A stretch of DNA of 64,000 nt from an uncultured Bacteroidales bacterium (GCA_905233685.1 CAJOEZ010000006.1:62001-126000); one strand, 5' to 3'. Numbered from the stretch's first letter, positions 2-53,604 are shown. Numbers and translations: made by a program. The notes: generated from the sequence alone by a model not told the origin.

Positions 2-346
2 CCTGCCGAACTGAAAACTCATGGTGGCGTGAGCAGTACTTTGGTTTCCCCCAATTGGCTGATTAGCACCTATCTCGTCTTGACCTTCGCCGAACTTTTG
101 TTAAGTCCTATCGGCATCTCTTTCGTCACCAAAGTGGCACCGCCCAAGTACAAGGGCATGATGATGGGCATGTGGTTCTGCGTGACCGCCATCGGTAACT
201 ACCTCACTAGTGTCATCGCTCGCATTTGGGGCACAGGAATGCCGCTCTGGATGGTCTGGGGCGTGCTCGTCGTGCTCTGCCTGCTCTCCGCCGTGTTCAT
301 CTTCTCTATCATGAAGCGGTTGGAAAGAGCTACACAGGGATGCTAG
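2..346 (+). CDS. POT-family peptide MFS transporter, C-terminal part (5' end outside window)
   Basis: Open from the window edge; TM-rich 'VAPPKYKGMMMGMWF...AIGNYLTSVIA' typical of the POT/PTR C-terminus. Confidence 0.75.
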   Translation, partial: PAELKTHGGVSSTLVSPNWLISTYLVLTFAELLLSPIGISFVTKVAPPKYKGMMMGMWFCVTAIGNYLTSVIARIWGTGMPLWMVWGVLVVLCLLSAVFIFSIMKRLERATQGC

Positions 347-29900: not shown

Positions 29901-30241
29901 CCGTCGGGGTGTTTCGTCACGGCATCGTTTTCTATTGTCAGGCCACTGCTTTGCAGCTTGCGCACGATGGCCTCGGCGTAAGAGATTTCCTTCGGCTCTT
30001 GCGAGAGGCGCACATAGAGCGGAAAATAGTCTTTTCGCCTTAAAATGGGAATAACACCTGCCCGCAATAAGGAGGTCTTTCCAACACCCGAACTGCCGTA
30101 AAGCGTGATAAACAGGTTGTTGTCAATAAGACGCACCACATCAAGGGCCTCTTCATCGCGACCACAAAACAGGTAGTCGTTGCCGTCGTTTTTCGGCTCT
30201 TCGTAGGAGGCTAATCCAAGCCAAGGGTTTTTCTTTGTCAT
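26975..30241 (-). CDS. nSTAND-type NTPase with TM helix and C-terminal WD40 repeats
   Basis: 'LFCGRDEEALDVVRLI', Walker A 'GSSGVGKTS', Walker B 'VIILDQFEEVF', TM 'IFIIVSIIALTIAGIFLF', about 14 WD40 units, C-terminal 'LTAEERRMYY' tail. Confidence 0.93.
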   Translation of the reverse strand: MTKKNPWLGLASYEEPKNDGNDYLFCGRDEEALDVVRLIDNNLFITLYGSSGVGKTSLLRAGVIPILRRKDYFPLYVRLSQEPKEISYAEAIVRKLQSSGLTIENDAVTKHPDGDDRLYLWNYFAITHFFNEDREVYPVIILDQFEEVFREGDKAKAELLLKQIYLLLNDELEMPDEASYSSDTNYRFVSSIREDFLFVLEDSIDENSLDLYKNNRYRLRPMKPEQARQVVLVPGKDCFEESEKETIAECIITLAKRPQSEDIDTLLLSIVCSGTYDKKVGEKIASTDLTVWKNNPMEVYYQDAVKGLTATQIRYIQQHLIREDGSRRRVNVAEVKAALGETTYRQLTQSKNRLFAIGDKGQVELLHDQLGMAVYEERKTFEAKRRRNIFIIVSIIALTIAGIFLFQNHKLKQQRWKMMENQARFVSERAVSLADEDTYLAQLLVTEVLPENINSKHPQKPYTIEAEKALRYLTNHNPLVLHNHTSFVKSVAIDIMEKHIASASWDKTIKIIDFKTGKIIHTLNGHNGYINSIVFSPNGKLVASASFDKTIRIWDVKSGCVLDTLIGHTDYVNSISFSPDGKRLVSASTDRTIKIWDVMREHETITLYGHSGSVVSAVFSPDGKQIASASRDNTVKIWEDIEENKNAIQTFTGHSGNVISVVFSPDGKRIATASRDNTVRIWDITGKVTDTLIGHTDCVTSVAFSPDGKHIVTASKDKTIRIWDSKTGKTIDTLIGHSDVVNSAIFSPKGNHIVSASNDHTVRIWGLDNAEKIIQLEGHTYFVRNVIFSPDGKLVIAPSIDKTLKIWNVETKKTTHILIDHSDQICSASFSPDGKRIATASRDKTVRIWDTAGQIIDTLIGHSDYVSSVSYSPNGKYIASASWDKMIIIWDAYTGQEIQKIPGHDKSINYVIFSPNGKWLLSASDDCTIKMWNVKTGELIRTFIGHTNVVSFIAFNPNGKQFISSSFDKTIKLWDAEYDSCIFTFKGHSNYVNAATYSSDGKYIISTDQSQKMIIWDAKTRQIIQKYPTKAYYAVFSPDNNQILISQNPDGIIGLVSFPPLQDLVDQTRERLKDRPLTAEERRMYYLE
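27065..28795 (-). repeat. WD40 repeat array, about 14 units of ~42 aa (126 bp)
   Basis: Recurrent 'GHxxxVxSxxFSPDGKxIxSASxDxTIxIWD'. Confidence 0.9.
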
Positions 30242-30253
30242 GGCGGTTCGGTT

Positions 30254-31645
30254 CTATGCGTTGGTGAGTTTAACAAGATGTTCAAAAGTATCCTTGGCCG
30301 TTTCAAACGCTGTGGCCTTGACCATGCAAGGGGGTAATTGCTGGTGATAGGACTCGCCAAAACGATAATCGCCAACGACAACAGGAATAACCGTGAAATT
30401 GGCCAAGCCATTTTCATTCAGGGTGCATTCGTCATTATGCCGGCTTTGCGCCCAATCCCATTCCTGATGGTACCATCGATTGGCGATGTTGTTGGAAACC
30501 AAGTCGCTTTTCACCTGTGAACTCAGAATGGGCATGAAAACACGGCAATTGTTGATGGCGTTGCGGATACGCCGCTCATATTCCGCGCCGCCTTCCAGCT
30601 TTTCCTCATCGAGCCAAACATTGACGCCAACTGCATGAAGCCTCTCAAACAGCGGCAATGCGATATAACGGTCTTCGTGGGCGTAAGAGATGAACACCCC
30701 GTTTTCCTGACGCGGAAGAAGGTTTACATCTGTGGCAGTTTTGATGTGATTGACAGCATCTTGCATGAAGGAACGCGCATCGGCAAACACCTTCACTTTC
30801 TCGTGCTCAAGATAATGCTTTAACGTGTCGTCGTTCTTGATTTCCACTGCCACTTGCTGCCCTCCAGAGGCGTTCCCGAATTTGTCGCGCAAGAGATACC
30901 AGAAGAACCGGAACATCCAGTCGTCGAACTTGTTGCCAACCGAAAACAATTGGAAATGCTTCAGGTAGCTCAAGAAGTTGTTGGAATCGTGGCTCTTGAA
31001 CCATGAGGCCACTTTTTCCATGGCATCGTTTTCGGTAAGGACGAATTTGTTATAAGGATTTTCAAGGTCAGCTTTGCCGAACACATAGCATAATACAGGT
31101 CGGGCAACACCAAATTCGCTATACGAAACCTGTTTGAAGGTCTTTTGAGCATTCTCAATTTGCACCACATCAAAGTTGCTTTTGCCCCACACCTTTTCCA
31201 TGGCAATTTCAACGTATGGATCGATGGTGGTTGAAAGCACGATACGGAAACAGCGCGTTTGGAGCAGTTGCATCAGCGAAGGCTCAATTTCCTCATCAAA
31301 TAACGGTAGGAAATCGTTGTTTCTCAACGCTTTTAGAACATAATCCTTTACCGTCTCATTATTACGGTCTCGAATCAATTCGGTGAAGTTTTGAAACTCA
31401 CTCTTTAATTCGAGATACTTGTGTTCGTTGAACTCTTCTTTGGTTGCCATTTGGCGCAAAGTGAGGTCAAATAGCAGTTTCAGGCTGTTGCCTTCCGCTT
31501 CAGGATTGACATCACGGTTAAGGACGGCTTCACTGCCGACCACGAGGGCGTATTTGTTGAGCAGGCAGTCCTTGGCGAATTGCTGCCAGGTGAAGTCGCT
31601 ATCGCGGCGGATACGTTGTTCGTTGGGTTTGGTTGTTACTGGCAT
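30254..31645 (-). CDS. Degenerate SIR2-like domain fused to C-terminal TIR domain
   Basis: 'KYALVVGSEAVL', 'IVLSTTIDPYVEIAM', 'CYVFGKADLENP' SIR2-like; 'GVFISYAHEDRYIALPLFERL...VWLDEEKLEGGAEYERRI...RWYHQEW' TIR. Start set to Met 31645. Confidence 0.75.
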   Translation of the reverse strand: MPVTTKPNEQRIRRDSDFTWQQFAKDCLLNKYALVVGSEAVLNRDVNPEAEGNSLKLLFDLTLRQMATKEEFNEHKYLELKSEFQNFTELIRDRNNETVKDYVLKALRNNDFLPLFDEEIEPSLMQLLQTRCFRIVLSTTIDPYVEIAMEKVWGKSNFDVVQIENAQKTFKQVSYSEFGVARPVLCYVFGKADLENPYNKFVLTENDAMEKVASWFKSHDSNNFLSYLKHFQLFSVGNKFDDWMFRFFWYLLRDKFGNASGGQQVAVEIKNDDTLKHYLEHEKVKVFADARSFMQDAVNHIKTATDVNLLPRQENGVFISYAHEDRYIALPLFERLHAVGVNVWLDEEKLEGGAEYERRIRNAINNCRVFMPILSSQVKSDLVSNNIANRWYHQEWDWAQSRHNDECTLNENGLANFTVIPVVVGDYRFGESYHQQLPPCMVKATAFETAKDTFEHLVKLTNA

Positions 31646-31715
31646 GGAATTATCAGATAGAATGAATACAGTGGCAAAGATATTGTTTTGCAACTTCAAA
31701 ATAGTTTCAATGCAC

Positions 31716-32966
31716 TCATGGCTTCCCGCCTCCATTAGGCATATTTCCGCTTCCGGAACTACTGCCGCCAAAACTACCGCTGCTCATACTGCCACTTCCA
31801 GCACCGTTAATCCAGTCCCACTGCTTAATAGCCGTTGTCGTTGCTGTCTGTAAGGAACAGCGCAAAAGTGAGGTGCCTTGCTGTATGCAGTATTCTTTCG
31901 CAGCAGGCCAGAACGGTTGCTTCTTTTTCATGCTTTTGATGTGGCGGTAGTCCTCCTTCCAGTTGTCTTGGAGTTGCTTTGTTATAGCACAATTTTCGGC
32001 AACAGTCACCTTTACATTGTATTCTCCCGTGCCCCAATGGGGTGCGCCTCCCGTGAGTGGCATATAGGAACGCGGAACGATGAAACAGCTTCCAGCGATT
32101 CTCATCAGCGTGTCGTTCGGGGTTCTTTTGTAGACAAACACACTGTCGGTTAGGTGGTTCGGGTCAATGGGGATCATAACACTGAAAGTACCCAGATCAA
32201 CATCTTTCGCCAGCATGATGGCTTGATTATACCATGACGAAGTGATGGTGAAGTCAATACTAACCGTCAGATTCTCGCGCTCCTCGAAATTGAAGGAAAC
32301 GCTTCGTTCGTATGTCTTGCCACGCTCAGGGTGGATGTGATTGGCCGAAAGGTTAGGCAGATGGCAACGATAGGGATAGAAGTACATAGAATCCAGCACT
32401 AAGCGGAACTTGCTGTGGTTGACGATTTCGTTGAGTCCAGCCTCCTCGGTGTCGACATGGCTATAGAACAGAAGGACATCCTTGCCATCACGTTGGGCAT
32501 GGAGTGTGAAGCCGTTGAAGTTGAAGTCGGAGGGGTCGAGGGCACCATTTAACGAGCCTTTGGAATAGAAGTCGGTCAAGTTGTTGAGGTAGGTGAGACT
32601 TTCTTCGTATCTACATTCGTTTTGAATCATCTGTTTCCATTCAGATTCCTGCTTCTTGGGAGTTTCTATCAGGTTCATCACTTCCGAAACGGCAATGCTT
32701 GAAGATTGGACGATAAGCGTGTTGAGAACGGCCAAACCGATGGCGCCAATAACCGACCTATTGTGCCTTTGGTCGTCAATGAAATTGTTGATTTTTTGGG
32801 ATTCTAAAGGCCCTAAAGTGTTAATGTCCAGCTGAATCGAGTTTGTGGCTTCGGATTTTAACTGGTCAGTTTGGGAAGGATTGATGTCTCGTTGCGATTG
32901 AGGCGGTTGGGCATTGGTGAAAAGCACCGTTGCCAAAAGGGTAAATGTAAAGAATAATCTTTTCAT
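31716..32966 (-). CDS. Secreted protein of unknown family with Gly/Ser-rich C-terminus
   Basis: Signal peptide MKRLFFTFTLLATVLFTNAQ; C-terminal 'GSGSMSSGSFGGSSSGSGNMPNGGG'. Confidence 0.6.
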   Translation of the reverse strand: MKRLFFTFTLLATVLFTNAQPPQSQRDINPSQTDQLKSEATNSIQLDINTLGPLESQKINNFIDDQRHNRSVIGAIGLAVLNTLIVQSSSIAVSEVMNLIETPKKQESEWKQMIQNECRYEESLTYLNNLTDFYSKGSLNGALDPSDFNFNGFTLHAQRDGKDVLLFYSHVDTEEAGLNEIVNHSKFRLVLDSMYFYPYRCHLPNLSANHIHPERGKTYERSVSFNFEERENLTVSIDFTITSSWYNQAIMLAKDVDLGTFSVMIPIDPNHLTDSVFVYKRTPNDTLMRIAGSCFIVPRSYMPLTGGAPHWGTGEYNVKVTVAENCAITKQLQDNWKEDYRHIKSMKKKQPFWPAAKEYCIQQGTSLLRCSLQTATTTAIKQWDWINGAGSGSMSSGSFGGSSSGSGNMPNGGGKP

Positions 32967-32996: not shown

Positions 32997-35222
32997 TTAT
33001 TTTACATCAATTAGAATAAAGGCATTGTAATATTCGGGCAAGCCGTAGTTCGGCTCTGTCATCTCGGGAACGAGCAATACAGGGTCAAATTGTTCGGTAG
33101 GTTCTCGGTAGGTGTTGATTAGTTCCTCGCGTGCATGGAGGAAGGCGGTATGAATGTCTTCTGATTGAAGATACTTGTAAAAGGTTTGCATCAACAAGGA
33201 AGTGGCATCGTCATCCACGCTCCATAAACTGAGTATCATGCCTTTGACACCGGCATTCTTTAGGCTACGCTGCAAGCCATAGATGCCATCATCAGTCATG
33301 TAGCCTTGTGCGGTTTGGCAGGCGGAAAGCACGATGAGGTCAACGCCGGAGAAATCCATTTGAGCAATCTCGCGGGCCGAAAGAATACCGTCGTGCTGTG
33401 TTGCGTCAAAGTCATTGCTGTATAAAGCGGAAGTGGTACCCGCAAAGACGATTCCGCTTTGCGAAAGCGACTCGTCGTAACTGGCTGGCAGTAGGTCGGT
33501 GCCTTCCGGCGTTTCGCCAAGATAAAAACCGTGGGTAGCCAAATGAACAATTGCGTATTGTCCTATCATACAGGCAGCTCGTGTTTCGGTGGCAAGAGTA
33601 TCGGTCAGAAGGACGATGATAGAACTGTCGTATTCGTTACGAATGCCCTCGATTTCAGTTTTGGTACCGGGCAAGTTGCCAAACCTGAATTCCATGGTTT
33701 TCAGATGCCGGTAAGCCTGATCGTCGTTGGTGAATTGGGCTTCGTTGCCGTCATCAGCTGCTTGCGATGCTTTGAAGAAATCTATTCCGCCGCAAAGAAG
33801 CACCTTGCCACTGCGTTTTTTGTTTGGCTTGACGAGCAATTGTCGTGTGCTGGTCAAACGGTATAGGTTCTCGGTTTTTAATGAGGTCAAAGCTGGCAAC
33901 TTAGGCAACATGTATTCGATGGCCAATTCGTGGAAAAGGCCATCAGCGGCAAAATAGAGGCGTTGGGCGTCTTTGCCAATCGCGGTCAACAGTTCTGGAG
34001 TCCAGATGAGGCTGAAGTTGGTGGAATCGTTATAGAGTTCGTTTTTCATGTCCGAGCAGTCCGTGGTGACGGCATCGTACAAGTAATCGCCGTCGGTCAG
34101 CGTCAGGTTTTCAAGATCTTCTACGCTACGAATTTTAATAAATTGAGGCTCGCCTTTTTTCCTAAGTACCAAAGCTCCCATTTGTTTCTTGCCATATTTT
34201 TCGTATTGGATGAACTCCACGGCGCAGTCGGTGGGTTGCAGTTTTTTCTGTACTCGCTTCCACGTGAACGACTGCGGCTTGCCCGATTGGGCATATTCGA
34301 GCAACAGACTCTTGCCAAACAGTGTCACATCGTATAGGAAAGCGGGGTCGGTATCTTCTAACCTATAACAATCCACCACAAAGGGGCGGACACGCATCCA
34401 ATACTGTTCGCGGTCTTCGGGACTCATATCGCCAAGATGTAGCATGGCATCGGCTTTCTTCAAGGCGAAGTATTCTTTATAGCATTTCAAAGCCTCTTCT
34501 TTAGGGTTGGCCATGCCGGTGCCACCGCTTTCCTGTTGTAACATCAGTATCTTGGCCTTCTTTCGGAGGGCTTCTCCATAAGGTTCGCATTTCTTGTTAG
34601 GATAGCTGTTAATCACCAAATCAATGTCATTAAGGGCTTCCTTGAATTGACCGACGCGGGCTTTGCACATAGCCAATTGGGAGACGAAATCGAGGATGTC
34701 GTTTTCGGAACTGAGGGCCGAATGCATCCATTTCTCAGCCTCTTTCATCTCCGCATAAGCTTCCGTATAACGGCCTTGCTTGTAATAAAGTTGCGCCAAC
34801 TCTTCGTGCATGACGAAACGATAATAAAAAATGTCCTTACCCCAGGTTTCATGTCCAGGGTCTTCGACGAAAGCCACGGCTTCCTTGAAACACTTTTCGG
34901 CCAAGGCATACGAGCGCGAATCTTCGTCAGAGTTGAGGTAATGGTAGTCGCCATAGAGCTTGTAACATTTGACAAACAACAGAAGGCTGTCCTTGTCCTG
35001 TTGGGTGAGTATTCCCTCTTTGTCACTTTGGCTGATGGCAGCTTCGTAGGCGTCGATGATACGCTTGATTTGCGCCTTGTTGCCCACTTCAACATAGCTT
35101 TTTCGTCCTTCTTCGAGGAGCATTTCAAGGTGGGCAATGGTTGTGTTCTTGTAGGATTGCGCAATCAAGGGACTGACTGCCAAGCTGAGCAGAAATAATA
35201 ATGTTATAGATCTGGTTTTCAT
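32997..35222 (-). CDS. Secreted TPR-CHAT protease-like protein
   Basis: Signal peptide; TPR-like helices; CHAT core 'IVHLATHGFYLGE' (His) and 'DLIVLSACQTAQG...LQRSLKNAGVKGMILSLWSVDDDAT' (Cys). Confidence 0.88.
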   Translation of the reverse strand: MKTRSITLLFLLSLAVSPLIAQSYKNTTIAHLEMLLEEGRKSYVEVGNKAQIKRIIDAYEAAISQSDKEGILTQQDKDSLLLFVKCYKLYGDYHYLNSDEDSRSYALAEKCFKEAVAFVEDPGHETWGKDIFYYRFVMHEELAQLYYKQGRYTEAYAEMKEAEKWMHSALSSENDILDFVSQLAMCKARVGQFKEALNDIDLVINSYPNKKCEPYGEALRKKAKILMLQQESGGTGMANPKEEALKCYKEYFALKKADAMLHLGDMSPEDREQYWMRVRPFVVDCYRLEDTDPAFLYDVTLFGKSLLLEYAQSGKPQSFTWKRVQKKLQPTDCAVEFIQYEKYGKKQMGALVLRKKGEPQFIKIRSVEDLENLTLTDGDYLYDAVTTDCSDMKNELYNDSTNFSLIWTPELLTAIGKDAQRLYFAADGLFHELAIEYMLPKLPALTSLKTENLYRLTSTRQLLVKPNKKRSGKVLLCGGIDFFKASQAADDGNEAQFTNDDQAYRHLKTMEFRFGNLPGTKTEIEGIRNEYDSSIIVLLTDTLATETRAACMIGQYAIVHLATHGFYLGETPEGTDLLPASYDESLSQSGIVFAGTTSALYSNDFDATQHDGILSAREIAQMDFSGVDLIVLSACQTAQGYMTDDGIYGLQRSLKNAGVKGMILSLWSVDDDATSLLMQTFYKYLQSEDIHTAFLHAREELINTYREPTEQFDPVLLVPEMTEPNYGLPEYYNAFILIDVK

Positions 35223-35226
35223 ATAC

Positions 35227-36387
35227 TTAGTGTTTAATTAATAATACATCGTTAGGACCGCAGGGCATATATATGATATTACTTTCAAAGTCGACTATTG
35301 GAGATGTAACATTATATGCAACTCTTTGTTGTTGCAATGGAATGTTAATTTCAAAGAAGCCGTTGGAGTCTGTTAGTCCACGAACTATTTCGCGGTAATC
35401 ATGATTCTCGTCTTGGTCGGAAATGATGATTTCACAATTTGGAACAAGTGATTCGTTTTCGGTGTCCCATAGACTGAAACAAATGCGGCCGTAAATTTCA
35501 GGATTTCGTTTGATATTGAGCGATGTTGTCTCGGAAAGCGGCATGATAGTGTCTATGTCAAAAAAGCTTTTGAATGAGACCTTGATGCCTACATCTTGAC
35601 CAAGTCGATGGCGTGGGATTCTTTTAAAAAATGCTTTTCCCCTTTGTAGGCAGATAGTGTCAGTTAAGACTTCACTATCAAGGTATAAAGTGACTACACC
35701 ATCATCAGAAGGCAAGTTCTTGTTTTCAGTAATGTCATTTACCTTAATTTCAGCCGTTATTGGGACAAATTGTCTAATAGTGTAAGTCCATATGGTAACC
35801 ATAGCCAAACCTCCTAATGTCCAAACTGAAGTTTTTCTGACCAGCATTCGCTTGTGCCGCTGCCAAATGGTGTCGAACTCGACATTGAGCAGTTTAGAGA
35901 TGAGCTGTACATAGGCCCGTTCTTTGTTGAGCCACGGCTGGCGGTAAATCTTCTCATGAATATTGGCTCCAAGGATTTCGGGCAATCCGAGTTGATCAAT
36001 GACTGGGTTGAAACATTCCGTGTCGGGATTGCCACTGTGGGGCGTGCCTTCCACGATGAAGAAATGGATGTTTTTAGTGCGTCCGAGGCTATGGAAAAAC
36101 TCGATTTCCTTGCCCACCCATTCGGATTGCGCCGAGTTGGGCGAACAGATGACGATAAGGTTTTTCGAGGCTCTCAGCCTTTCCTGCAATTCTTCGGTAA
36201 GCCCGCCTGGCTGAATATCGGTTGGGGCAAAAAACACGGGCTTGATGGGCGTCCGTTTCCATCCATGCTCACTACACAATGTGGCGGGCATCCGGTAATG
36301 TTCCAGCTTCTTTTGCAGCTTCTTACCCCAAGCAGTGTCCTTCGAGCTGTAGCTGATGAAGGCGAAGTATTTAAAGGAGTTAGTCAT
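35227..36387 (-). CDS. Membrane TIR protein (TIR-TM-extracytoplasmic beta-rich domain), paralogue 1
   Basis: 'FAFISYSSKDTAWGKKLQKKLE...LIVICSPNSAQSEWVGKEI' TIR; TM 'VWTLGGLAMVTIWTYTI'; CarboxypepD_reg-like C-terminus. Confidence 0.83.
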   Translation of the reverse strand: MTNSFKYFAFISYSSKDTAWGKKLQKKLEHYRMPATLCSEHGWKRTPIKPVFFAPTDIQPGGLTEELQERLRASKNLIVICSPNSAQSEWVGKEIEFFHSLGRTKNIHFFIVEGTPHSGNPDTECFNPVIDQLGLPEILGANIHEKIYRQPWLNKERAYVQLISKLLNVEFDTIWQRHKRMLVRKTSVWTLGGLAMVTIWTYTIRQFVPITAEIKVNDITENKNLPSDDGVVTLYLDSEVLTDTICLQRGKAFFKRIPRHRLGQDVGIKVSFKSFFDIDTIMPLSETTSLNIKRNPEIYGRICFSLWDTENESLVPNCEIIISDQDENHDYREIVRGLTDSNGFFEINIPLQQQRVAYNVTSPIVDFESNIIYMPCGPNDVLLIKH

Positions 36388-39300
36388 TTTCTTTAGGTTT
36401 TATTTTACTTTCGATTTCAGCTATTTTTTGTTTGGTCTTGAGGGTGCTTTGACCTTCAGCTCCAAATAATTGTACTTTGATTTGATAAGATTTGTTGAAA
36501 CATTCAAGAGCTTTTTCGTAATTGACCAGTTTGTTGTATGTGTTTCCAAGGTTTTCGTATTCTATGGCAACCTCGGAATGGTTTTCTCCATAAATGGATT
36601 TCTTAATGCTCAAGGATTTTCTAAATGATTCCAAAGCATCCTCGTAATTGTCCAACCTGTAATAAGCTATTCCAATTTTGTTGTACCTTAATGCAACGTC
36701 GGTATGGCTTTCTCCTAAATTGGTGATTTGGAGGGGAAGGGCTTTATTATAGTATTCTAAAGCCATGCCGTAGTTGCCTTGACTGCTATACGAATCTCCG
36801 ACATTATTGTAATATGTGGCCATCTTGTAATGATTTTCTCCATAGACAGATTTGTATATTTCCAAAGCTTTCTTGAAAGATTCCAATGCCTTGTCGTAGT
36901 TTTTCATCCTATAATATATTATTCCAATTTTGTTATGTATAAAAGCGACATCAATATGATTTTCGCCTAAATTGGCAGTCTTAATCAGAAGTGTTTTGCT
37001 GTAGTATTCCAAAGCCTTTTCGTAATTGCCTTGTCTTAAGAATGTTTCTGCCACATTGCTATATGCGATGCCGATATCGGAATGATTCTCGTCGTATAAG
37101 GATTTGTATATTTCCAAGGCTTTGATAAAAGGCTCTAATGCTTGGTCGTTTTTTCCCAAATTCAAGTATGCTATTCCAATCTTGTTATACCTTAGAGCGA
37201 CATCAACATGGTTTTCACCTAAGTTGGCAATCTCAATAGGTAGTGCTTTATTATGGTATTCCAAAGCTTTATTGTAGTCGTTAAGGTTTTCATATACAGA
37301 TGCGATGTTGTCGTATTCGAAAGCAACATGGGGATGAATCGTATCTAATACGGATTTGTAAATTAATAAAGCTTTATTATAAAACTTTAATGCGTTTTCG
37401 TTATTGTTCTGATGGTAATATACAGAGCCAATATTGTTATAACTTAGAGCAACAGCCGTATGGTTTTCTCCAAAAAAGGATAGTTGGATAGACAAGGCTT
37501 TGTTGAAATAGAAGAGTGCTTGGTCATAATTACATTGCTTCAAATAAATGTTTCCGATATTATTGTATGCTAAAGCAACAGCGCTGTGTTGCTCTCCGAA
37601 AGAGATTTGGTCGATTTTTAATGCTTTGTCATAATACTCCAACGCTGAGTCATAGTTGCCTTGTTCGAAATAAATCTTCCCAATATTGTTATATGTAGTA
37701 GCGACATCGGGGTGATTCTCTCCAAGGTTGGCAGTTTTGATATTTAGAGCTTTATTGTTGTATTCCTGAGCTTTTTCATATAGCCCTTGATTTTCGTAAA
37801 CTAATGCGATGTTGTTGTATGCTTTCGCGACATTTGGGTGGTATTCTCCAAGAGTTAAGTTCCAAATCTTCGCTGCTTTTTCACAATACTCCAATGCTTT
37901 TTCATAATCTCCATTACTTAAGTAAGTTGACCCAATATTGTTGTAGCTTAAGCCAATGCTAGAATGTTTCTCGCCATAAATGTTTTTTTGTATTTCTAAT
38001 GCTTTGTTATAATAATACAAAGCTTTGTCATAATCGTTTAGTTGACTATAAACTGTTCCAATATTACTGAGTGTGGTAGCAGTCATTGGGTGGTTTTCTC
38101 CTACACTTGATTTCAAAGTACCTAAAGCTTTATTATAGTTTTTAAGAGCTTCCTCATAATTATCTATTGCACTATAGATTGCTCCAATGTTATTATATTC
38201 GAATGCTACTTTAGGATAGCTTTCTCCTAAATCAGCTATTAGCGAGGGTAGGGAATTGTTGTAGATCTGTAAAGCCCTTTCATAATCACCTTGATGGCAA
38301 TACGCTGCTCCGATATTGTTATCAATGAGATGGATTAAAGGTTTGTTGACTTGTTCTTTACCATAACAAGCGTTTTGAGCCATGTTGAAGAACTCAAGAG
38401 CTTTTACATAGTCTCCAAGGTGCAAGTAAATCATCCCAATATTGTTGTAACTGTATGCAATGGTGGAATGGTCTTCCCCGAAAATGGATTTTATCATTCT
38501 CAAAGATTCTTCCAAATTCTCCATGGCTTTATCATAATTGCCTGTATAAATGAGCGTTATTCCAATATTGTTGCGACATAGGGCTGCCCACTCGCTATTT
38601 TCCCCATATTGGGAAAGTGCTTGTTTCAATGCTTCTTGATAATAGTTTAAGGATTTCGAATAGTCGGCGAGATAATCGCAGATAAACATACCCGCCTCAT
38701 ATCGCCACTGTACATTGGTGGTGTCCAATCTTGCCCTCAATTCCAAATAATGAGCTGCAGAATCATTTTGATATTGCGCCGCAAAGGTCTCGTAATAGCT
38801 GTAGCAACGTCTGGCCAGTTCCTCCTTGTCAACGGCATGAACCGCCTTTGCTTTGCCTAATTGTTCTTCCTGTTCTTGGATGGCTTGTTCTTCACGCAGG
38901 TATTCCTTCACTTGCTCGTTAGGGTTACCACGGCTTTTCAAAAGCGAGTCGGCTTTCACCAATTCGCCGTTCTCAATGCAATAGGAAACTTGTCGGTAAA
39001 ACTCGTCCAATTGGTCGTAGTCCAATTCGGAATAGCGTTTCGCCATGTCGGAGATCAGCTTTTCGTTGTTTTCCTGGTCTTGGTAGAGTTTCTGTAACGA
39101 CTGTCGGTATTCTTCATCAGAGATTTTCCGCTGTTCTTTCAAAGCTTCAATCTCGTCCTCTCGTTCATGAAGCTGTTTTTCAAGGTTCCTTCTTATTTTT
39201 CGTTCAGCTACCAACTTGTCTTGCTCCTGCTTTTCTGGTGTCTCCATCACCAAATAAATAGGGTTTGAGGAGTGTTTGTAAGTCCTCGGGCAGGCATCCA

Positions 39301-39565
39301 TATCCACCAATTGGTAGCCTTTCTTTCTTACCGAATCGAGGTGGAATTGTGTTTCAGGCATGGGAAAAGAAAAGGCGCCATCGTCGGTTTTTACTAATAC
39401 GGTGGTTCGCCCTCGTATGGAAACAGTAGCTCCTTTCAATCCTTGGCCAGGCACGTGTTTGCCGTCCACCATACGGCCTTTGGTCTTCACATAGCCTTGC
39501 TGGGTCTGGGCGAAACTCATTGTTGCAATGAGCAAAACCAATAATAAACACAACAACTTTTTCAA
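36380..39565 (-). CDS. Secreted CarboxypepD_reg-like / long TPR protein (copy 1, 1061 aa)
   Basis: Signal peptide then 'QTQQGYVKTKGRM..PGQGLKGATVSIRGRTTVLVKTDDGAFSFP' followed by about 17-18 42-aa kinesin-light-chain-like TPR units. Confidence 0.88.
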   Translation of the reverse strand: MKKLLCLLLVLLIATMSFAQTQQGYVKTKGRMVDGKHVPGQGLKGATVSIRGRTTVLVKTDDGAFSFPMPETQFHLDSVRKKGYQLVDMDACPRTYKHSSNPIYLVMETPEKQEQDKLVAERKIRRNLEKQLHEREDEIEALKEQRKISDEEYRQSLQKLYQDQENNEKLISDMAKRYSELDYDQLDEFYRQVSYCIENGELVKADSLLKSRGNPNEQVKEYLREEQAIQEQEEQLGKAKAVHAVDKEELARRCYSYYETFAAQYQNDSAAHYLELRARLDTTNVQWRYEAGMFICDYLADYSKSLNYYQEALKQALSQYGENSEWAALCRNNIGITLIYTGNYDKAMENLEESLRMIKSIFGEDHSTIAYSYNNIGMIYLHLGDYVKALEFFNMAQNACYGKEQVNKPLIHLIDNNIGAAYCHQGDYERALQIYNNSLPSLIADLGESYPKVAFEYNNIGAIYSAIDNYEEALKNYNKALGTLKSSVGENHPMTATTLSNIGTVYSQLNDYDKALYYYNKALEIQKNIYGEKHSSIGLSYNNIGSTYLSNGDYEKALEYCEKAAKIWNLTLGEYHPNVAKAYNNIALVYENQGLYEKAQEYNNKALNIKTANLGENHPDVATTYNNIGKIYFEQGNYDSALEYYDKALKIDQISFGEQHSAVALAYNNIGNIYLKQCNYDQALFYFNKALSIQLSFFGENHTAVALSYNNIGSVYYHQNNNENALKFYNKALLIYKSVLDTIHPHVAFEYDNIASVYENLNDYNKALEYHNKALPIEIANLGENHVDVALRYNKIGIAYLNLGKNDQALEPFIKALEIYKSLYDENHSDIGIAYSNVAETFLRQGNYEKALEYYSKTLLIKTANLGENHIDVAFIHNKIGIIYYRMKNYDKALESFKKALEIYKSVYGENHYKMATYYNNVGDSYSSQGNYGMALEYYNKALPLQITNLGESHTDVALRYNKIGIAYYRLDNYEDALESFRKSLSIKKSIYGENHSEVAIEYENLGNTYNKLVNYEKALECFNKSYQIKVQLFGAEGQSTLKTKQKIAEIESKIKPKEND
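36383..38650 (-). repeat. 126-bp-period TPR repeat array
   Basis: 'ALEYYNKALxIxKSxxGENHPxVAxxYNNIGxxYxxxGNYDK' repeated about 17-18 times. Confidence 0.88.
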
Positions 39566-39684: not shown

Positions 39685-40362
39685 TTAGTTGGTGATTAAT
39701 GAATAGTAGTTGCAAACGATCCCACGATTCTTGATTTTTACACAGAAATAACCAGTTCGTCTGGGGGTGAAGCTGCAAGTACAATGGTCAGAATAATTGG
39801 TGTCCGATGTAATCAGGTTGCCGTTTTCGTCAAAGATGTAAAGATCCAAGTCCGTGTCTCCGTCACCACTAACGACAACATATGCAGCTTCCCCGCCACG
39901 GAATCTGATTCTCCAGATGTCTGTGGATTTGGCACGGACACGGGCATAGTGAGAAACTGGGCCTTCTGCTGCTCCGCGTGTTGTGCCTTTGCAGTCTTTG
40001 ATGAGGGCAAGCAAGATCTTGTTCCCATCAGCGTAGGTTGTGGCATCGGCGAGCAGTTGTTCTTCGCTTAAAATGGGACGTTCGGTTTTGCTGATTCGGT
40101 CGGAAACAGGGGCGTCTTGGGTTTCGGTCTTCTCTCCGTCTAAAGCGGGTTGCACATTCAACTGCTGGTAAATTTGAACGGCTTGGATGAGAGGAAGGGC
40201 AGTTTGGGTTTCATAACCATACTTCACCAAATATCCAGCAAGAGCCAGTTGCTCGGCTTGACGTGGTATTGTTTTGGCTTCTTCCGCAGCAGGATTGGTT
40301 TGTGCGAATGTGCTAGCACTGATGAGCAATGCAGCTCCAAATAATAATAACTTTTTAAACAT
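39685..40362 (-). CDS. Secreted PPC (pre-peptidase C-terminal-like) domain protein B
   Basis: 'FRGGEAAYVVVSGDGDTDLDLYIFDENGNLI...TGYFCVKIKNRG' PPC signature. Confidence 0.75.
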   Translation of the reverse strand: MFKKLLLFGAALLISASTFAQTNPAAEEAKTIPRQAEQLALAGYLVKYGYETQTALPLIQAVQIYQQLNVQPALDGEKTETQDAPVSDRISKTERPILSEEQLLADATTYADGNKILLALIKDCKGTTRGAAEGPVSHYARVRAKSTDIWRIRFRGGEAAYVVVSGDGDTDLDLYIFDENGNLITSDTNYSDHCTCSFTPRRTGYFCVKIKNRGIVCNYYSLITN

Positions 40363-40495: not shown

Positions 40496-41383
40496 TTAGT
40501 TTAAATTTTCTTGCCACTCCGCATTAGTAGTATCCAAACTCGCCCTCAATTCTAAATAATGTGCTGCAGAATCATTTTGATATTGCGAAGCAAAAGTCTC
40601 GTAATAGCTGTAGCAACGTCTGGCCAGTTCCTCCTTGTCAGCGGCATGAACTGCTTTTGCTTTGCCTAATTGTTCTTCTTGTTCTTGGATGACTTGCTCT
40701 TCCTGCAGGTGTTCCTTCACTTGCTCGTTAGGGTTGCCACGGATTCTCAAAAGCGAGTCGGCTTTCACCAATTCGCCGTTCTCAATGCAATAGGAAACTT
40801 GTCGGTAAAACTCGTCCAATTGTTCATAGTCCAATTCGGAATAGCGTTTCGCCATGTCGGAAATTAGCTTCTCGTTGTTGTCCTGGTCGGCATAGATTTT
40901 CTGCATGGCTTTTTGGTATTCTTCCAAAGTGATTTTATGGGATTCCTTGAGGGCTTCCAACTCTTTCTCTCGTTGAAGGAGCTGGTTGGTGAGAGTGCGC
41001 CGGATTTTTTGTTGGGAATCTAATAGGTCCTGAAGCTGTTTTTCAGGTGTTTCCATTATGATATATAATGGGTTAGAGGAATGTTTATAAGTCCTATAAC
41101 AGGCATCCATATCCACCAATTGGTAACCTTTCTTTCTAACGGAATCGATGCGAAATTGCGGTTCAGGCACGGGAAAGGAAAACGCACCGTCGTCAGTTTT
41201 TACTAACATGGTGGTTCGTCCTTGTATGGAAACAGTGGCTCCCTTTAAGCCTTGGCCAGGCACGTGTTTGCCGTCTATCATGCGGCCTTTGGTTTTTACA
41301 TAGCCTTGCTGGGTTTGGGCAAAACTCACCATGGCAACAAGTGAGCAGACGAATAATAGCAGTCCTTTCTTCATAATTAACAT
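40496..41383 (-). CDS. Truncated CarboxypepD_reg-like/TPR paralogue (copy 2) lacking the TPR array
   Basis: Signal peptide and QTQQGYVKTKGRM module nearly identical to copy 1; ends before the TPR array. Confidence 0.8.
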   Translation of the reverse strand: MLIMKKGLLLFVCSLVAMVSFAQTQQGYVKTKGRMIDGKHVPGQGLKGATVSIQGRTTMLVKTDDGAFSFPVPEPQFRIDSVRKKGYQLVDMDACYRTYKHSSNPLYIIMETPEKQLQDLLDSQQKIRRTLTNQLLQREKELEALKESHKITLEEYQKAMQKIYADQDNNEKLISDMAKRYSELDYEQLDEFYRQVSYCIENGELVKADSLLRIRGNPNEQVKEHLQEEQVIQEQEEQLGKAKAVHAADKEELARRCYSYYETFASQYQNDSAAHYLELRASLDTTNAEWQENLN

Positions 41384-41394: not shown

Positions 41395-42063
41395 TTAATA
41401 TACCGTCAAACTATAGTTATTAGTCACAGAGCCTCGGTTCACAATCTTGACAACGATGGTGGAGAGTTCTTCAAAGACGGTCAGGCCGCATTGGTCGCTG
41501 GCGGAAGTGTTTTTGTCAATCTCGCGGCCTTCCAGGTCGTAGAGATAGAGGTCGAGGTCGGAGCTGCCGTCACCGCTCAGGTGGACGAAGGAGTGCTTGC
41601 CTCCGCTGAGGGGCACCGTCCATATATGCGTTTTATGCGGAGCGATGTAGTCGTAATGGGAGTAAAAGGTCTTCATAGGCTTTCGGCTCGTTTTTCGGCA
41701 GCCGTTAATCAGGCTTGTCAATGCCGGGTCGCCTTTGGCGAATTGGGTGGCATCGGCCAGCAATTGTTCTTGGGTGCGGGCGGGATGATTGGCTATGGTT
41801 TCTTCCTCCTCGCCTTCGCCTTCAATAACGGGTTTCAAGCCGTCCGTGGCAGGTTGCAGGTTTAGCTCCTGGTAGATTTTCACCGCCTGGATGAGTGGCA
41901 GGGCATCCTCTGTCTCGTAGCCATAGTTCACCAAAAGACCCGCTAAAGTGAGCCTTTCCATGATTTTTGAGGTCGTTTCATCCTTCGCCGCAGGGATGGT
42001 GTCTTGCGCGAAAGAGTTTGCGCTGATGAGCAAGAATGCTCCTAAAATGATTCTTTTGAACAT
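41395..42063 (-). CDS. Secreted PPC-like domain protein A (paralogue of 39685-40362)
   Basis: 'LSGGKHSFVHLSGDGSSDLDLYLYDLEGREI...STIVVKIVNRGSVTNNYSLTVY'. Confidence 0.75.
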   Translation of the reverse strand: MFKRIILGAFLLISANSFAQDTIPAAKDETTSKIMERLTLAGLLVNYGYETEDALPLIQAVKIYQELNLQPATDGLKPVIEGEGEEEETIANHPARTQEQLLADATQFAKGDPALTSLINGCRKTSRKPMKTFYSHYDYIAPHKTHIWTVPLSGGKHSFVHLSGDGSSDLDLYLYDLEGREIDKNTSASDQCGLTVFEELSTIVVKIVNRGSVTNNYSLTVY

Positions 42064-42075: not shown

Positions 42076-42702
42076 TTAATATTTCCTCGAATTATGATTA
42101 ATAATCACCACAGGTATGTCCTCGTTGCCACGGTTGGTGATGACGAGGCGGATGGTGTCGCTTTTGATGACGTTGGCGTTGATGCTCAGCACAATGTCGC
42201 CATTGTCAATGCTGGTTTCTCCAACAGGCTTGTCGTTAAGATAGGCTTTCACTTCCAATTGCGCTGTTTTGGGATTATAGGGCATGACAACAAAAGTCTG
42301 TCGCCCTTCGCGGTAACTCAACTCATAGCTGACACTGCATTGCCTCTTGATGCCACGCTCGGTCAGCGAGTAGTTGTAATGCGGGTCATTGCCATTCAGG
42401 AAATCGCCGCGCACCATTTTTTTGTCATAGTTGTTGCATCGGTTGAGGATGGCGTTGAGCTTGAACTGGTTATTGCCAAGCAGCCAACACTCGTTTTCGT
42501 CTCTGGCTACTTCGTCCATGGTAGTCCAAAGGCTGTCGTGACCAAAGGCATCAAGGGCTTTGTTCCATGTTTTTTCATCGGCGTTTCGAAGGGTGGCGAC
42601 GGTCTTGGTCAGTTTTTGTAGTTCGGGGTCAGTTTTTGTTTGTGTAAAGGCTTGTCCGAACAGGATAACATTGATGATGAGTAAAAGAAATGCTTTTTTC
42701 AT
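42076..42702 (-). CDS. Secreted protein of unknown family
   Basis: Signal peptide MKKAFLLLIINVILFGQAFTQ; 4-bp overlap with upstream kinase-like gene. Confidence 0.6.
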   Translation of the reverse strand: MKKAFLLLIINVILFGQAFTQTKTDPELQKLTKTVATLRNADEKTWNKALDAFGHDSLWTTMDEVARDENECWLLGNNQFKLNAILNRCNNYDKKMVRGDFLNGNDPHYNYSLTERGIKRQCSVSYELSYREGRQTFVVMPYNPKTAQLEVKAYLNDKPVGETSIDNGDIVLSINANVIKSDTIRLVITNRGNEDIPVVIINHNSRKY

Positions 42703-43301
42703 AATGATTTGTCTTTGTATGGATTAGACATCGGTTTTTGCATGATTTCCGGCCAGAAGGCAAGGTCTTGCCTTGCGAGGTCGGTTTCGGTTTGGGAAAC
42801 TTTTCCCATGGTTTTGAATTTTGGGCCTTTTCGGATTTCGTCCATGCAACGCTGGTATTGTTGCAATGCTTTGTCGTGGACTTGCTGTAGGGTAGGCCGT
42901 CGGGTGGGATGAAATTGGAGGCATTGTTGTACGAGTTCGCTCAGTTCAGGCCATTCGCTGCGCATATAGGGCAGTTTGGAACTTGCCTTTTGGCCTTTTC
43001 CTCCCTTGCCGTTCATCACTTGACAGCCCATGATTACGAAAAACACAGTAGCGCAAAGTGACCAAGTTGTTCCCGCTTCATTGAGTTGGTTTTCAATTGT
43101 TTCTGGTGCATTAAAGTCATCATGATTAGCTGTTGTTGTTGCCAATGAGAAATGCCCGTTGTCATCGATTTCAATGCAGTACGGGTCGATGGAGCGCAAT
43201 CCTTTTTGGATAAGGGTCTCGCTTACTTCCTTGAGGATTTGCCATGCCATCATTTCGTTGCAATGGCCTGCCAATTCTGAAACATAAATCTTTTCTTCCA
43301 T
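42699..43301 (-). CDS. Predicted pseudokinase: protein-kinase C-lobe without N-lobe or canonical HRD/DFG
   Basis: 'AWQILKEVSETLIQKGLRSIDPYCIEIDDNGHFSLATT..FNAPETIE..EAGTTWSLCATVFFVIMG...LSELVQQCLQFHPTRRPTLQQVHDKA' aligns to kinase subdomains VI-XI. Confidence 0.72.
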   Translation of the reverse strand: MEEKIYVSELAGHCNEMMAWQILKEVSETLIQKGLRSIDPYCIEIDDNGHFSLATTTANHDDFNAPETIENQLNEAGTTWSLCATVFFVIMGCQVMNGKGGKGQKASSKLPYMRSEWPELSELVQQCLQFHPTRRPTLQQVHDKALQQYQRCMDEIRKGPKFKTMGKVSQTETDLARQDLAFWPEIMQKPMSNPYKDKSL

Positions 43302-43302
43302 G

Positions 43303-44664
43303 TCAGTTCTTGTTTTTCATTCTTTCAATTTCGCTGACGGGTACCGAGTAATACCAGTTGTCGTTTTCATTGTCTATTACAGAAACCGCTCCAATGGCGC
43401 ACCACCTGGAGAGGCCCTTTCGCGTCAGCACGGGACCGCCCGAAAAGCCGTGGTTGATATTGCCATCGTGGGCAATCATAGTATTGGGATAACCGTCAAT
43501 GCAATGTGAATCTGTGAGTTGCAACTTCAGGCTTGCTTTCGGCGATTGTATCTGCTTGTCTTCAGCTTTATTTCCCATCCTTCCCAAAATAATGAGAGAA
43601 CGGTTGGGGTTGTGACATAGACTGCGCACTTCCTCCTTCGTGGCCAAGTGGATGTTACCTTTCTGATGGTGAAGTTTGCTTGAGGTATCGGGAATGAATG
43701 CAATGTCGCCCAGCATCATGTCGGTGCGGTGGGGACGCACTTTGATGCTTCGCCAGAAATACTGGTGATTATAATCGCCACATTCCACGATATGGTCACG
43801 TGAATCGTCGAAAATGAAATCTTCCGAAGTTACGTGAAACCAAACGGAATCATTGATTTCAGGCTTTAGCAATGAGCAATAACTGACCATCTTCCATTTT
43901 GCGCTGTCGACACGAGTGATATTGTTTGTTACAGCTTCCAAGGCCATCATAACATGTTCGGGTGTACTGGCATCTATTATGTATTTTGTGGTTTCCTTAG
44001 GAAAGTCTAACCATGGCTCAATGCAATGCCTTGCTGTAACCAATTGGCCGTCGGTTGTCAGGAAGGCAGTGCCAAACTCATCACGAATAGGGGCGCTTCC
44101 CAATACTAGGGTGCTGTCACCTCGGCAAACCAGCAGTTTTACAGAATCTACTTGGATTTGGAAAACTGATTCCTTGGAGCTTTCAATCATGGCGTTGGAC
44201 ATGGAAGGTGTATAGAACTGTTGTAATCCGATGCACAGCACTACAGCAGATACTATGGCAATCCACACGGTCATCAGACGGCTCTTTTTCCCCATCGTGA
44301 CAATGCCCGAAGAAGTGTATAGCTCATCCTCGCGGATGTTGAAGACTAATTCTTGCTGCTGTCCTTCAAAAGCAATGTGGTCGCCGTCGCTGAGGAAGTG
44401 TATATGATTAATAGGTGTGCCGTTCACGCGCACTTCATGTTCCTTGTAAGGGGAAGTCCTGATGAGCTTCCAGCCTTTGTCATTAGGTCGTTTTTCAATT
44501 ACAGCGATAAAGGCATCTTCGAATTGGCTGCCATTGGCAAGCCTGATGTCGCACGATTCAGTCTGCCCGATGCGTAGCGTGTTTTGGTCGTTAAACACTT
44601 GATCGCCAGCTTTATGAAAAGCATCGTCGCGCTCAAATCGCAAGGTGTAGTATTTCTTAATCAT
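43303..44664 (-). CDS. FHA domain - TM - trypsin-like serine protease
   Basis: N-terminal 'LRIGQTESCDIRLANGSQ..' FHA; TM 'LMTVWIAIVSAVVLCIGL'; triad candidates 'TARHC', 'GDIAFI', 'GFSGGPVL'. Confidence 0.85.
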   Translation of the reverse strand: MIKKYYTLRFERDDAFHKAGDQVFNDQNTLRIGQTESCDIRLANGSQFEDAFIAVIEKRPNDKGWKLIRTSPYKEHEVRVNGTPINHIHFLSDGDHIAFEGQQQELVFNIREDELYTSSGIVTMGKKSRLMTVWIAIVSAVVLCIGLQQFYTPSMSNAMIESSKESVFQIQVDSVKLLVCRGDSTLVLGSAPIRDEFGTAFLTTDGQLVTARHCIEPWLDFPKETTKYIIDASTPEHVMMALEAVTNNITRVDSAKWKMVSYCSLLKPEINDSVWFHVTSEDFIFDDSRDHIVECGDYNHQYFWRSIKVRPHRTDMMLGDIAFIPDTSSKLHHQKGNIHLATKEEVRSLCHNPNRSLIILGRMGNKAEDKQIQSPKASLKLQLTDSHCIDGYPNTMIAHDGNINHGFSGGPVLTRKGLSRWCAIGAVSVIDNENDNWYYSVPVSEIERMKNKN

Positions 44665-46223
44665 GGCTGGGATTCTTTAAAGGACTGTGCAATTAGTGGG
44701 ATGCAGGCGGTAAGGTCGTAGTCGTAGAGGCGGACGTTCTGTCCAGTCTTGTCCTCGCGAAGCTCGCGGTAGGAACAGAGGTCGTAATGGATTTTCTTCT
44801 TCTTGTAGACATTCTTCAGGTCTTGCTCGGGTTTCTCTTTCCCAGTTTCCTTAGCCGTGATGAAAGCCTCGATATTCTCGCGAATTTCCTCACGCTCTGT
44901 GTCAGTGGGTGGACGGAAGCCCAAAACTAGGCGTTCCACGCTCCAACGGTTGTGTTCCACTGCGGAGAGTGTCTCGATTTCTTCCTGCGTCAGTGCGAAG
45001 AACTTGTCCCAATCCTTTTCCTCGTGCCCTAACGAGCGCATCTTGGTAGCTATGGTCATTACGTTGTAAATGTTAGAGTAGCGCATGCTGAAGGTCTGCA
45101 CGTTGCGCCACGCCGCCTCGACTTTCTCTAATGGCATGTCTGTGGGTGTGCCTTCCTGACCATAACTGCAAATGTAGAAATAATTGAGTCGTTTGGCCAT
45201 CTGCAAAAGGGGCAGACGCACATCGTAGCCGCAATCATCCATGCCGATAGGGTAGAGGTTGTGGTAGCCTTCGGTCTCGCGCACCTTTTCCAGCATCCCC
45301 GACCGCTTGGCATAAACAAGAACCGTGATGTCATTCAGATAAAAGTTCTTAGGCAAAGCGAAAGCACGGTCGAAATTGCTGTCGAAGTCGTTGTCGCAGA
45401 GAGCAAGGGTCAGCAGTTGTTCCTTGTCGTTAGACCATAGTTGCAGCTTACGTTGCAGTAAAGGATCATAAAAATCTCCGTCTACGAACTCCCATTCCAC
45501 GTCCACAAAGTCTTCCCGCGTGGAATGATAGATAGGCTCATGATACAGTGTCATACTGCGTTGTTTGAGGTCTATGCAACGGTAATAACTGTTTTCAAAG
45601 AGGTTGGCGTAGCGTTGGACGAATGCATCTTTCTGCGCCGACAGTCCTTCGTCGATGATGGTAATTCGTGTTCGAAGCGCTTGGTTGCGCACATAGTTGG
45701 GGAAGTGTGCAATTAGGGCGGCATGAAGGGCCAGACTCTCGCCAAGGTCGCTGAAGCCAGCAATGACCAAATGCACGGTCTTGTTGGAGGCTGCGTCAAT
45801 CTTTTCCCTGTCCAAAGTAGGGTAGAAGCCGCTGCTTTTTCCAAGGCCGCAGAAAACGTTCTTTGCCCATTGGTCTTCCATGGTGAAGACGTAAAGCTCA
45901 AACTTCTTATGGATTTCGGGATAGAGGTCGAGCGTTTGCAGCAGCCAAAGCGTCACTTTGTCGTGCAGCAGCAGGTGGCACACGGGCTTCGACTGCCCTT
46001 CCGCCGTGGCGGGACAGGTTGTGGCGAAGTCTTCCAAGGCTTGCAGCGTGTCGTGGTCGGCGGTGCCTTTCTCAGGCAGGACACACAACTCGTGGCAGGG
46101 CTTCCCTGTTGGTACTGAGGCGAAGTCGGAGTAGATTTCGACCTCGCATCCCAAGGCCTTGAATTGCCCGATGATGCTCTCGCGAATGGGGTGGTTGCCG
46201 ATGATTAGGACTGTATTATTCAT
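44661..46223 (-). CDS. Rossmann/TrkA-N-like protein with C-terminal RyR-type domain (RyR protein 1)
   Basis: 'VLIIGNHPIRESIIGQFKALGCEVEIYSD', 'VHLVIAGFSDLGESLALHAA..RITIIDEG', C-terminal 'LSAVEHNRWSVERLVLGFRPP...HYDLCSYRELRE..RLYDYDLTACIPLIAQS'. Confidence 0.75.
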   Translation of the reverse strand: MNNTVLIIGNHPIRESIIGQFKALGCEVEIYSDFASVPTGKPCHELCVLPEKGTADHDTLQALEDFATTCPATAEGQSKPVCHLLLHDKVTLWLLQTLDLYPEIHKKFELYVFTMEDQWAKNVFCGLGKSSGFYPTLDREKIDAASNKTVHLVIAGFSDLGESLALHAALIAHFPNYVRNQALRTRITIIDEGLSAQKDAFVQRYANLFENSYYRCIDLKQRSMTLYHEPIYHSTREDFVDVEWEFVDGDFYDPLLQRKLQLWSNDKEQLLTLALCDNDFDSNFDRAFALPKNFYLNDITVLVYAKRSGMLEKVRETEGYHNLYPIGMDDCGYDVRLPLLQMAKRLNYFYICSYGQEGTPTDMPLEKVEAAWRNVQTFSMRYSNIYNVMTIATKMRSLGHEEKDWDKFFALTQEEIETLSAVEHNRWSVERLVLGFRPPTDTEREEIRENIEAFITAKETGKEKPEQDLKNVYKKKKIHYDLCSYRELREDKTGQNVRLYDYDLTACIPLIAQSFKESQP

Positions 46224-48297: not shown

Positions 48298-48353
48298 GAT
48301 AGTATTGTTTGTATTACTTTTGAATGGTGAGAACATTGTGCATCAGACTCTAG

Positions 48354-52467: not shown

Positions 52468-53604
52468 TTATTCTTTTTCGATAGCAAACCCTTCGCAACA
52501 AGGCATGGTAAGAATATCTTTTGCCAAAGGGAAGGGCGCTGTAACTTGATAGGTGGTTTTTTGGCCTTCCAAAGGTATGGTAAACGCAACACGACCGCAA
52601 GAGTCGGTAACACATGCAATTCCATCAACTTGAATCGGGGTGTTGGCAATGGGGGTCTCTGTACGCCAATCCCAAAGGATGAAGACGATGTCTCCGTATA
52701 CTATAGGGTTGCGATACAAATCTATTGTCATGGAAGGGGCAATGGTCATGGTGGTGTCGACGTTAAGGAAGTCGCTGCAACTCACCGACATCTGTACAGG
52801 TTTGCCCCAAAACTCATGTGGTATATTGCTGAAAACAACACAAGTGTCTAATGATCGGACAGTGTCAACGAAAGGTTTGGTTTCATGGTCAAGGCGCAAG
52901 GTCACTACTGCGTTTTTCAACGGCGGCAGGCTGTCGTTGTGTACCGAAGCCTCGTTGAGCCGCACCTCCACGTCGAATGGCTGACTCATGCGTCCAACGG
53001 CCACCAATGCGGCCACCACAGCCAAGCAGCCCACCGTCCATGCCACGGCCTTCTTGACGAGCTGCCTCCTATGCCGCTGCCAGATGGCGTCGTACTCCAC
53101 GCCGAGCAGCTTCGAGATGAGCTGCACATAGGCCCGCTCTTTGTTGAGCCACGGCCAGCGGTAGATTTTCTCGTGGATGTTGGCTCCAAGGATTTCGGGC
53201 AGCCCTAATTGTTCGATGATGGGATTGAAGCACTCCGTCGCGGGGTCGCCGCTGTGGGGCTTGCCTTTCACGATGAAGAAATGGATGTTCTTGGTGCGCC
53301 CGAGGCTGTGGAAATACTCGATCTCCTTGCCCACCCATGCCGACTTGGCCGAGTTGGGCGAGCAGATGACGATGAGGTGACGAGAGTTGCGCAGGTGCCC
53401 CTGAAGCTCTTCGTTGAGGTCGCCCGGCTGGATGTCGGTAGGGGCGAAGTACACGGGCTTCATCGGCTTGCGCTCCCATCCACGCTCGCTGCACAGCGTG
53501 GCGGGCATGCGGTAGTGCTCCAGCTTCTTTTGGAGCCGCTTGCCCCATATCGTGTCCTTCGAGCTGTAGCTGATGAAGGCGAAATGCTTGAACGGCGCTG
53601 TCAT
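52468..53604 (-). CDS. Membrane TIR protein, paralogue 2
   Basis: 'FAFISYSSKDTIWGKRLQKKLEHYRMPATLCSE..LIVICSPNSAKSAWVGKEI'; TM; diverged extracytoplasmic domain. Confidence 0.83.
   Translation of the reverse strand: MTAPFKHFAFISYSSKDTIWGKRLQKKLEHYRMPATLCSERGWERKPMKPVYFAPTDIQPGDLNEELQGHLRNSRHLIVICSPNSAKSAWVGKEIEYFHSLGRTKNIHFFIVKGKPHSGDPATECFNPIIEQLGLPEILGANIHEKIYRWPWLNKERAYVQLISKLLGVEYDAIWQRHRRQLVKKAVAWTVGCLAVVAALVAVGRMSQPFDVEVRLNEASVHNDSLPPLKNAVVTLRLDHETKPFVDTVRSLDTCVVFSNIPHEFWGKPVQMSVSCSDFLNVDTTMTIAPSMTIDLYRNPIVYGDIVFILWDWRTETPIANTPIQVDGIACVTDSCGRVAFTIPLEGQKTTYQVTAPFPLAKDILTMPCCEGFAIEKE

Follow-up and report, generated by a model that had tools for sequence, protein, structure and literature searches.

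A membrane-anchored TIR protein and a secreted TPR protein as a candidate two-part transmembrane receptor in Bacteroidales

We analyzed a 64,000-nucleotide stretch of DNA from an uncultured Bacteroidales bacterium (GCA_905233685.1, CAJOEZ010000006.1:62001-126000; hereafter the window, with positions counted from its first letter). The subject is a pair of genes: TIR1, encoding a TIR protein predicted to be anchored in the inner membrane by one transmembrane (TM) helix, and TPR1, encoding a secreted tetratricopeptide repeat (TPR) protein. The two predicted periplasmic domains of TIR1 are termed PERI, and the module that follows the signal peptide of TPR1 is termed Nmod; CPD denotes carboxypeptidase D. 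The window holds two TIR-TM-PERI genes, four TPR copies and one Nmod-only copy, all within 26975-57182:

35227-36387, minus strand: TIR1, 386 residues (open reading frame, Pfam matches, AlphaFold2 model, alignment)
TIR1 residues 1 to about 120, minus strand: predicted cytosolic TIR domain, with a linker after it (Pfam)
35773-35841, minus strand: weak TM helix of TIR1, about residues 183-205 (hydrophobicity, model)
35230-35772, minus strand: PERI of TIR1, about residues 206-386, two beta domains on the predicted periplasmic side (AlphaFold2, charge bias)
36380-39565, minus strand: TPR1, 1061 residues, with signal peptide (TTG start), Nmod and 17 TPRs
TPR1 residues about 19-290, minus strand: Nmod, a transthyretin/CPD-like beta domain plus long helices (model)
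40496-41383, minus strand: Nmod-only secreted protein of 295 residues, no TPR array (open reading frame, comparison with paralogues)
46216-48336, minus strand: TPR2, signal peptide-Nmod-TPR paralogue (Pfam, paralogue comparison)
48354-50291, minus strand: TPR3, signal peptide-Nmod-TPR paralogue (Pfam, paralogue comparison)
50380-52452, minus strand: TPR4, signal peptide-Nmod-TPR paralogue adjoining TIR2 (Pfam, paralogue comparison)
52468-53604, minus strand: TIR2, second TIR-TM-PERI protein, 57% identical to TIR1, 15 bp before TPR4

Residues 10-112 of TIR1 match TIR_2 (E=1.5e-11) and ThsB_TIR (E=1.9e-8), both over the Pfam cut-off. The WxxxE motif reported in the initial annotation (SEWVGKE) is present as WVGKE at residues 90-94. 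W90 and E94 are invariant in 20 relatives, a W-x-G-x-E motif is present in 81 relatives, and E94 fits the catalytic position of TIR NADases. With a TIR profile, the sole solved relatives at E<=0.01 were the TIR domains of TLR1 and TLR2, which matched weakly (E about 0.006). The AlphaFold2 model of TIR1, built using 20 relatives (mean predicted local distance difference test (pLDDT) score, 80.1), consists of a TIR-like first part, a single continuous helix spanning residues 171-207 and a pair of beta sandwiches (about residues 209-292 and 301-385), whose blocks mostly score 77-93. The previously proposed order of TIR, one helix and beta C-terminus agrees with the model, and the TM segment is weak. 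In Foldseek, queried with whole TIR1 so that TM-scores are low since the beta domains alone align, the outer part matched Gram-positive pilins and CNA-B repeats, which are mostly extracellular folds. The C-terminal end had also been described as CarboxypepD_reg-like; TIR1 itself does not reach this family in a Pfam scan, and the description holds through homologues of its outer region, which match CarboxypepD_reg with E down to 3e-9. Sequence comparison relates the Nmod beta domain to the second of the two outer domains in the TIR protein (hhalign probability 95.7%). A second class among relatives joins the same TIR and TM segment to WD40 repeats within a single polypeptide of about 800-1050 residues (L031, L032, L039, L040, L043 and others), of which a locus sometimes has four copies (L032).

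The TPR1 reading frame ends at 36380 and the TIR1 ATG lies at 36387 on the minus strand, so that the two genes have the 8 bp ATGACTAA in common, just as initially annotated. TPR families cover the full length of TPR1 (TPR_12, E=5e-164), and counting of the 42-residue period gave 17 repeats behind an N-terminal signal-peptide-like segment, in line with the earlier description of a signal-peptide partner with 17-18 TPRs. Nmod-only proteins of about 300 residues are a recurrent class among relatives, and a natural one, with 50 relatives, was used to model Nmod. The model is very confident (92.9) and consists of a transthyretin-like beta domain followed by long helices; the closest fold to the beta domain is the transthyretin-like domain of human carboxypeptidase D.

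The topology was evaluated in the 82 relatives whose membrane segment is clear. The 15 residues before the TM helix contain 4.7 K/R on average, versus 1.4 in the 15 after, and the N side is the richer in 81 of the 82. Furthermore, of the 110 Nmod proteins whose N-terminus is intact, 108 begin with a signal peptide-like segment. The charge bias and the signal peptides support a TIR domain inside the cell, with the C-terminus and the Nmod partner in the periplasm, and a cytosolic C-terminus for TIR1 is disfavored by the charge bias, the fold of the beta domains and the homologues. A secreted partner and a receptor facing "outside" had been proposed; the predicted topology agrees, with "outside" corrected to the periplasm, since in Gram-negative cells this is what lies on the outer side of the TIR1 membrane helix.

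The TIR/TPR coupling extends well beyond this genome. In 78 full-length TIR relatives from other genomes (named contigs), the TIR gene directly adjoins an Nmod gene on the same strand in 58, as compared with 59 of the 712 other genes that these loci contain, corroborating the proposed coupling. Among the 58 adjoining pairs, 21 overlap and 44 are within 20 bp; the idea that the TIR1/TPR1 overlap is peculiar to one genome is thereby ruled out. In the remaining 20, the Nmod gene is mostly one to three genes off, or the TPR array ends at a contig edge. TIR-TM-PERI occurs in about a third of the sampled congeneric genomes and sporadically in other Bacteroidales, co-occurring with Nmod within one genus, and the named carriers are mainly rumen/gut Prevotella-like and Muribaculaceae-like bacteria. 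The TIR and TPR genes might instead be independent cassettes that share an island or operon without physical interaction, as a hotspot with variable cargo would allow and as four TIR-TM-PERI loci with no Nmod detected nearby (L076, L092, L093 and L127) might suggest. We consider this improbable: TIR/Nmod adjacency far exceeds that of other genes of the same islands, the overlaps are frequent, and the pair is retained in other families with five outputs that are not TIR.

These outputs were found in a search with PERI, which occurs, again after a membrane helix, on EAD11 (L187, L188; E=1.6e-20), HEPN_STY4199 (L189, L191; E=2.5e-35), CHAT (L195, E=5.2e-9; split form in L194), a TIR-like domain assigned by eye (L157, L158, L159, L196) and an anti-sigma-like region beside an extracytoplasmic function (ECF) sigma factor, including one in the window's own genome (G000:C10, L156). 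The anti-sigma label rests on the ECF sigma neighbor, without a Pfam match, and the loci bearing it are mutually related and hence not independent cases. An Nmod gene lies on the same strand no more than three genes away from 17 of the 21 non-TIR PERI genes, or from 17 of 18 once the count is limited to PERI genes with complete context; three of the four without Nmod are at contig ends. When the phylum was sampled evenly, the PERI profile recovered chiefly partial matches of a generic CarboxypepD type, along with a few distant proteins that have no Nmod nearby (Nmod near distant PERI-like proteins, 0 of 7). Our chief reason for holding that the TIR and Nmod proteins work together is that the outside pair stays constant while the inside domain changes. 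PERI plus Nmod looks like a portable transmembrane receptor with an exchangeable output.

Sequence variation within the pair is uneven. Between the window paralogues, the Nmod beta domain reaches 97-99% identity in protein and 92-97% in DNA, the coiled-coil stretches beside it fall to about 70% in only some of the paralogue pairs, and the TPR arrays are more divergent still. This mosaic suggests that the docking domain is homogenized by recombination, leaving the sensor arrays free to vary. Secreted TPR arrays that diverge among paralogues behind a conserved Nmod might also be expected of a surface-exported effector or adhesin, whose export or stability the TIR-TM protein would govern. This explanation appears very improbable, as family scans recognized no catalytic or pore domain in the window TPR proteins and the secreted module also pairs with anti-sigma proteins; moreover, we know of no one-pass protein with CPD-like domains that acts as an exporter. 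PERI evolves at a much higher rate than TIR, with mean distances of 0.54 and 0.21, respectively. Across 56 pairs from different genomes, the PERI distance tracks that of the Nmod beta domain once the TIR distance is controlled for (partial r 0.24, p 0.002, by a permutation that ignores relatedness), whereas the TIR distance does not with PERI held constant (0.05). The PERI/Nmod co-variation is only suggestive.

We estimate at roughly 60% the probability, as judged from sequence, that the TIR-TM-PERI protein and its secreted Nmod-TPR partner constitute a two-part transmembrane receptor. In such a receptor, the constant Nmod would dock on PERI in the periplasm, and the variable TPR array would detect something periplasmic, such as a phage, a competitor's toxin or a damaged envelope. 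Binding would then cluster the TIR domains in the cytosol, and the clustered TIR would cleave or cyclize NAD+, leading to growth arrest or death. Of this scheme, we infer the direct binding, the ligand, the clustering, the NADase activity and the role in defense. Several observations weigh against the receptor. The maximum 19-residue Kyte-Doolittle value of TIR1, 1.11, is the lowest of 83 relatives (median, 2.31), that of TIR2 being normal at 2.30. The four TIR-TM-PERI loci named above have no Nmod seen nearby, and another locus (L160) has PERI with no Nmod in its context. The co-variation is modest, with a permutation test blind to relatedness. The occurrence of PERI plus Nmod beside ECF sigma factors means that the front end is not confined to immunity, and no phage-defense model was convincingly matched by the cluster proteins scanned.

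The pair lies within a larger insert, whose other features are:

26972-57397, strand not assigned: whole insert between conserved flanks, about 30.4 kb (comparison with congeners)
26975-30241, minus strand: large accessory protein with an N-terminal STAND-like NTPase region (by eye), TM and a WD40 propeller
30254-31771, minus strand: SIR2-like plus TIR protein, a putative accessory effector (Pfam)
32997-35222, minus strand: secreted TPR-CHAT accessory protein (CHAT, E=8.7e-43), directly downstream of TIR1
55929-57182, minus strand: TIR3, accessory SARM1-like TIR with TM and a helical region (E about 2e-28 to SARM1 structures)

All four TIR_2 domains of the assembly are in this one cluster (26975-57182), and TIR3 has WVRRE at the position of the SARM1 WVHKE motif. 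The TPR-CHAT gene adjoins the TIR gene in L044/L065 and is a gene or two off in L053, L054 and L057. An SDR gene and a PCMD-domain gene form the left flank of the insert; its right flank consists of a small gene, pyrK and pyrD. These flanks are just 80-123 bp apart in at least nine congeners (empty sites), and other congeners carry 5.6-14 kb of different cargo at the site, including smaller TIR/TPR cassettes. The locus behaves as a defense-island hotspot cassette, although hotspots also bear other cargo. Outside the window, the same genome has a second pyrK-like match (G000:C10:70172-70792, 80% identical), which could be a paralogue or reflect mixed contigs in a metagenome-assembled genome.

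Further genes were noted on the minus strand of the cluster. An MscS-like membrane protein and then a gene without a Pfam match (RyR-like by eye) occupy 53601-55863, and this pair recurs beside TIR/TPR cassettes in L047, L051, L053, L058 and L060. A kinase-like fragment, an FHA-like (by eye)-TM-trypsin-like protein and a TrkA/RyR-like protein (by eye) occupy 42699-46223, a set that recurs in the relatives L044, L053, L054 and L057. Four more secreted proteins (39685-40362, 41395-42063, 42076-42702 and 31716-32966) gave one weak PPC-domain match.

The best rival to the receptor model is a general Bacteroidota sensor for the envelope or for nutrients, which would read a periplasmic state such as peptides or cell-wall damage and would not serve in defense. 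TIR would then be one output of several, perhaps a scaffold or an NAD signal that tunes physiology without killing. We rank it first among the rivals because the same front end sits on anti-sigma/ECF sigma pairs, where its output is transcriptional, and the mechanosensitive-channel-like, FHA-trypsin-like and kinase-like genes held by TIR clusters would also suit such a sensor. Nevertheless, we regard it as unlikely, though less so than the other rivals: most of the other outputs (CHAT, HEPN, EAD11) are of types usual in conflict systems, the distribution is patchy with insertion at a hotspot, and the cluster also encodes the SARM1-like TIR3 and a SIR2-TIR protein. Returning to the receptor, we tentatively propose, at somewhat less than even odds, that PERI plus Nmod represents a class of transmembrane immune receptor in Bacteroidota that has not been described before, comprising a constant docking pair, a diversifying TPR sensor and interchangeable outputs. 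The outputs would be TIR, CHAT, HEPN, EAD11, TIR-like or anti-sigma transcription, in a layout analogous to that of a Toll-like receptor assisted by a soluble co-receptor. If this is true, some gut bacteria monitor the space beyond the inner membrane with the effector domain of animal Toll-like receptors. The exchange of outputs also provides a rule: a PERI protein should require an Nmod partner, and new effectors may therefore be findable via PERI.

Among known systems, bacterial TIR systems known to us sense inside the cell. Like Thoeris ThsB, TIR1 belongs to the ThsB_TIR/TIR_2 families, scoring over the Pfam cut-offs; unlike ThsB, it is predicted to be membrane-anchored with a periplasmic domain, and is paired with a secreted protein. 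No ThsA-type match was found among the cluster proteins scanned, and we reject membership in Thoeris. Membership in FxSxx-COOH systems was likewise rejected: the FxsC TIR-like score is 16 bits, where the cut-off is 130, and the FxSxx_TPR match of TPR1 falls on its TPR repeats. FecR-type anti-sigma factors share the N-in/C-out layout, and the same genome has an anti-sigma-like PERI homologue with Nmod and an ECF sigma neighbor (G000:C10). They differ in that the TIR1 output is a TIR, with no TonB-dependent receptor partner seen and no sigma factor recognized beside TIR1 in the window.

In published work, TIR NADase activity has been reported for other bacterial and plant members (PMC10022894), and Thoeris is reported to degrade NAD+ (PMC7272460). 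Four further papers (PMC7159879, PMC8195603, PMC10907252, PMC7075850) describe exchangeable effectors, transmembrane sensors in occasional cases and sensors of periplasmic antigens; the passages located in them do not describe the present pair. The modular conflict systems of PMC7159879 and PMC8195603 resemble the present one in that a constant core is combined with exchangeable effectors (TIR, CHAT, EADs), some with TM helices and extracellular domains; the passages located in both papers do not mention the PERI/Nmod pair or a carboxypeptidase-like periplasmic domain. No description of the pair was found in searches of an open-access collection, which covers no subscription journals and few preprints and so does not prove novelty. 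The presence of the PERI/Nmod pair on five further kinds of output suggests a bacterial receptor class that has gone unrecognized.

The comparison with Toll-like receptors, implied when the locus was initially annotated as "TLR-like", is apt for the layout and possible working, and fails as sensor homology. Both have a single pass, a cytosolic TIR and a sensor region across the membrane, a layout that is predicted here and in which the TM segment of TIR1 is weak. A Pfam scan gave no leucine-rich-repeat family match, and so no counterpart of the N-terminal leucine-rich-repeat ectodomain. The order of TIR1 is inverted, with an N-terminal TIR and an outer part made of two C-terminal CPD/CNA-B-like beta domains. 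Finally, the repeat protein here is a separate secreted chain, and TIR1 keeps the catalytic-type glutamate.

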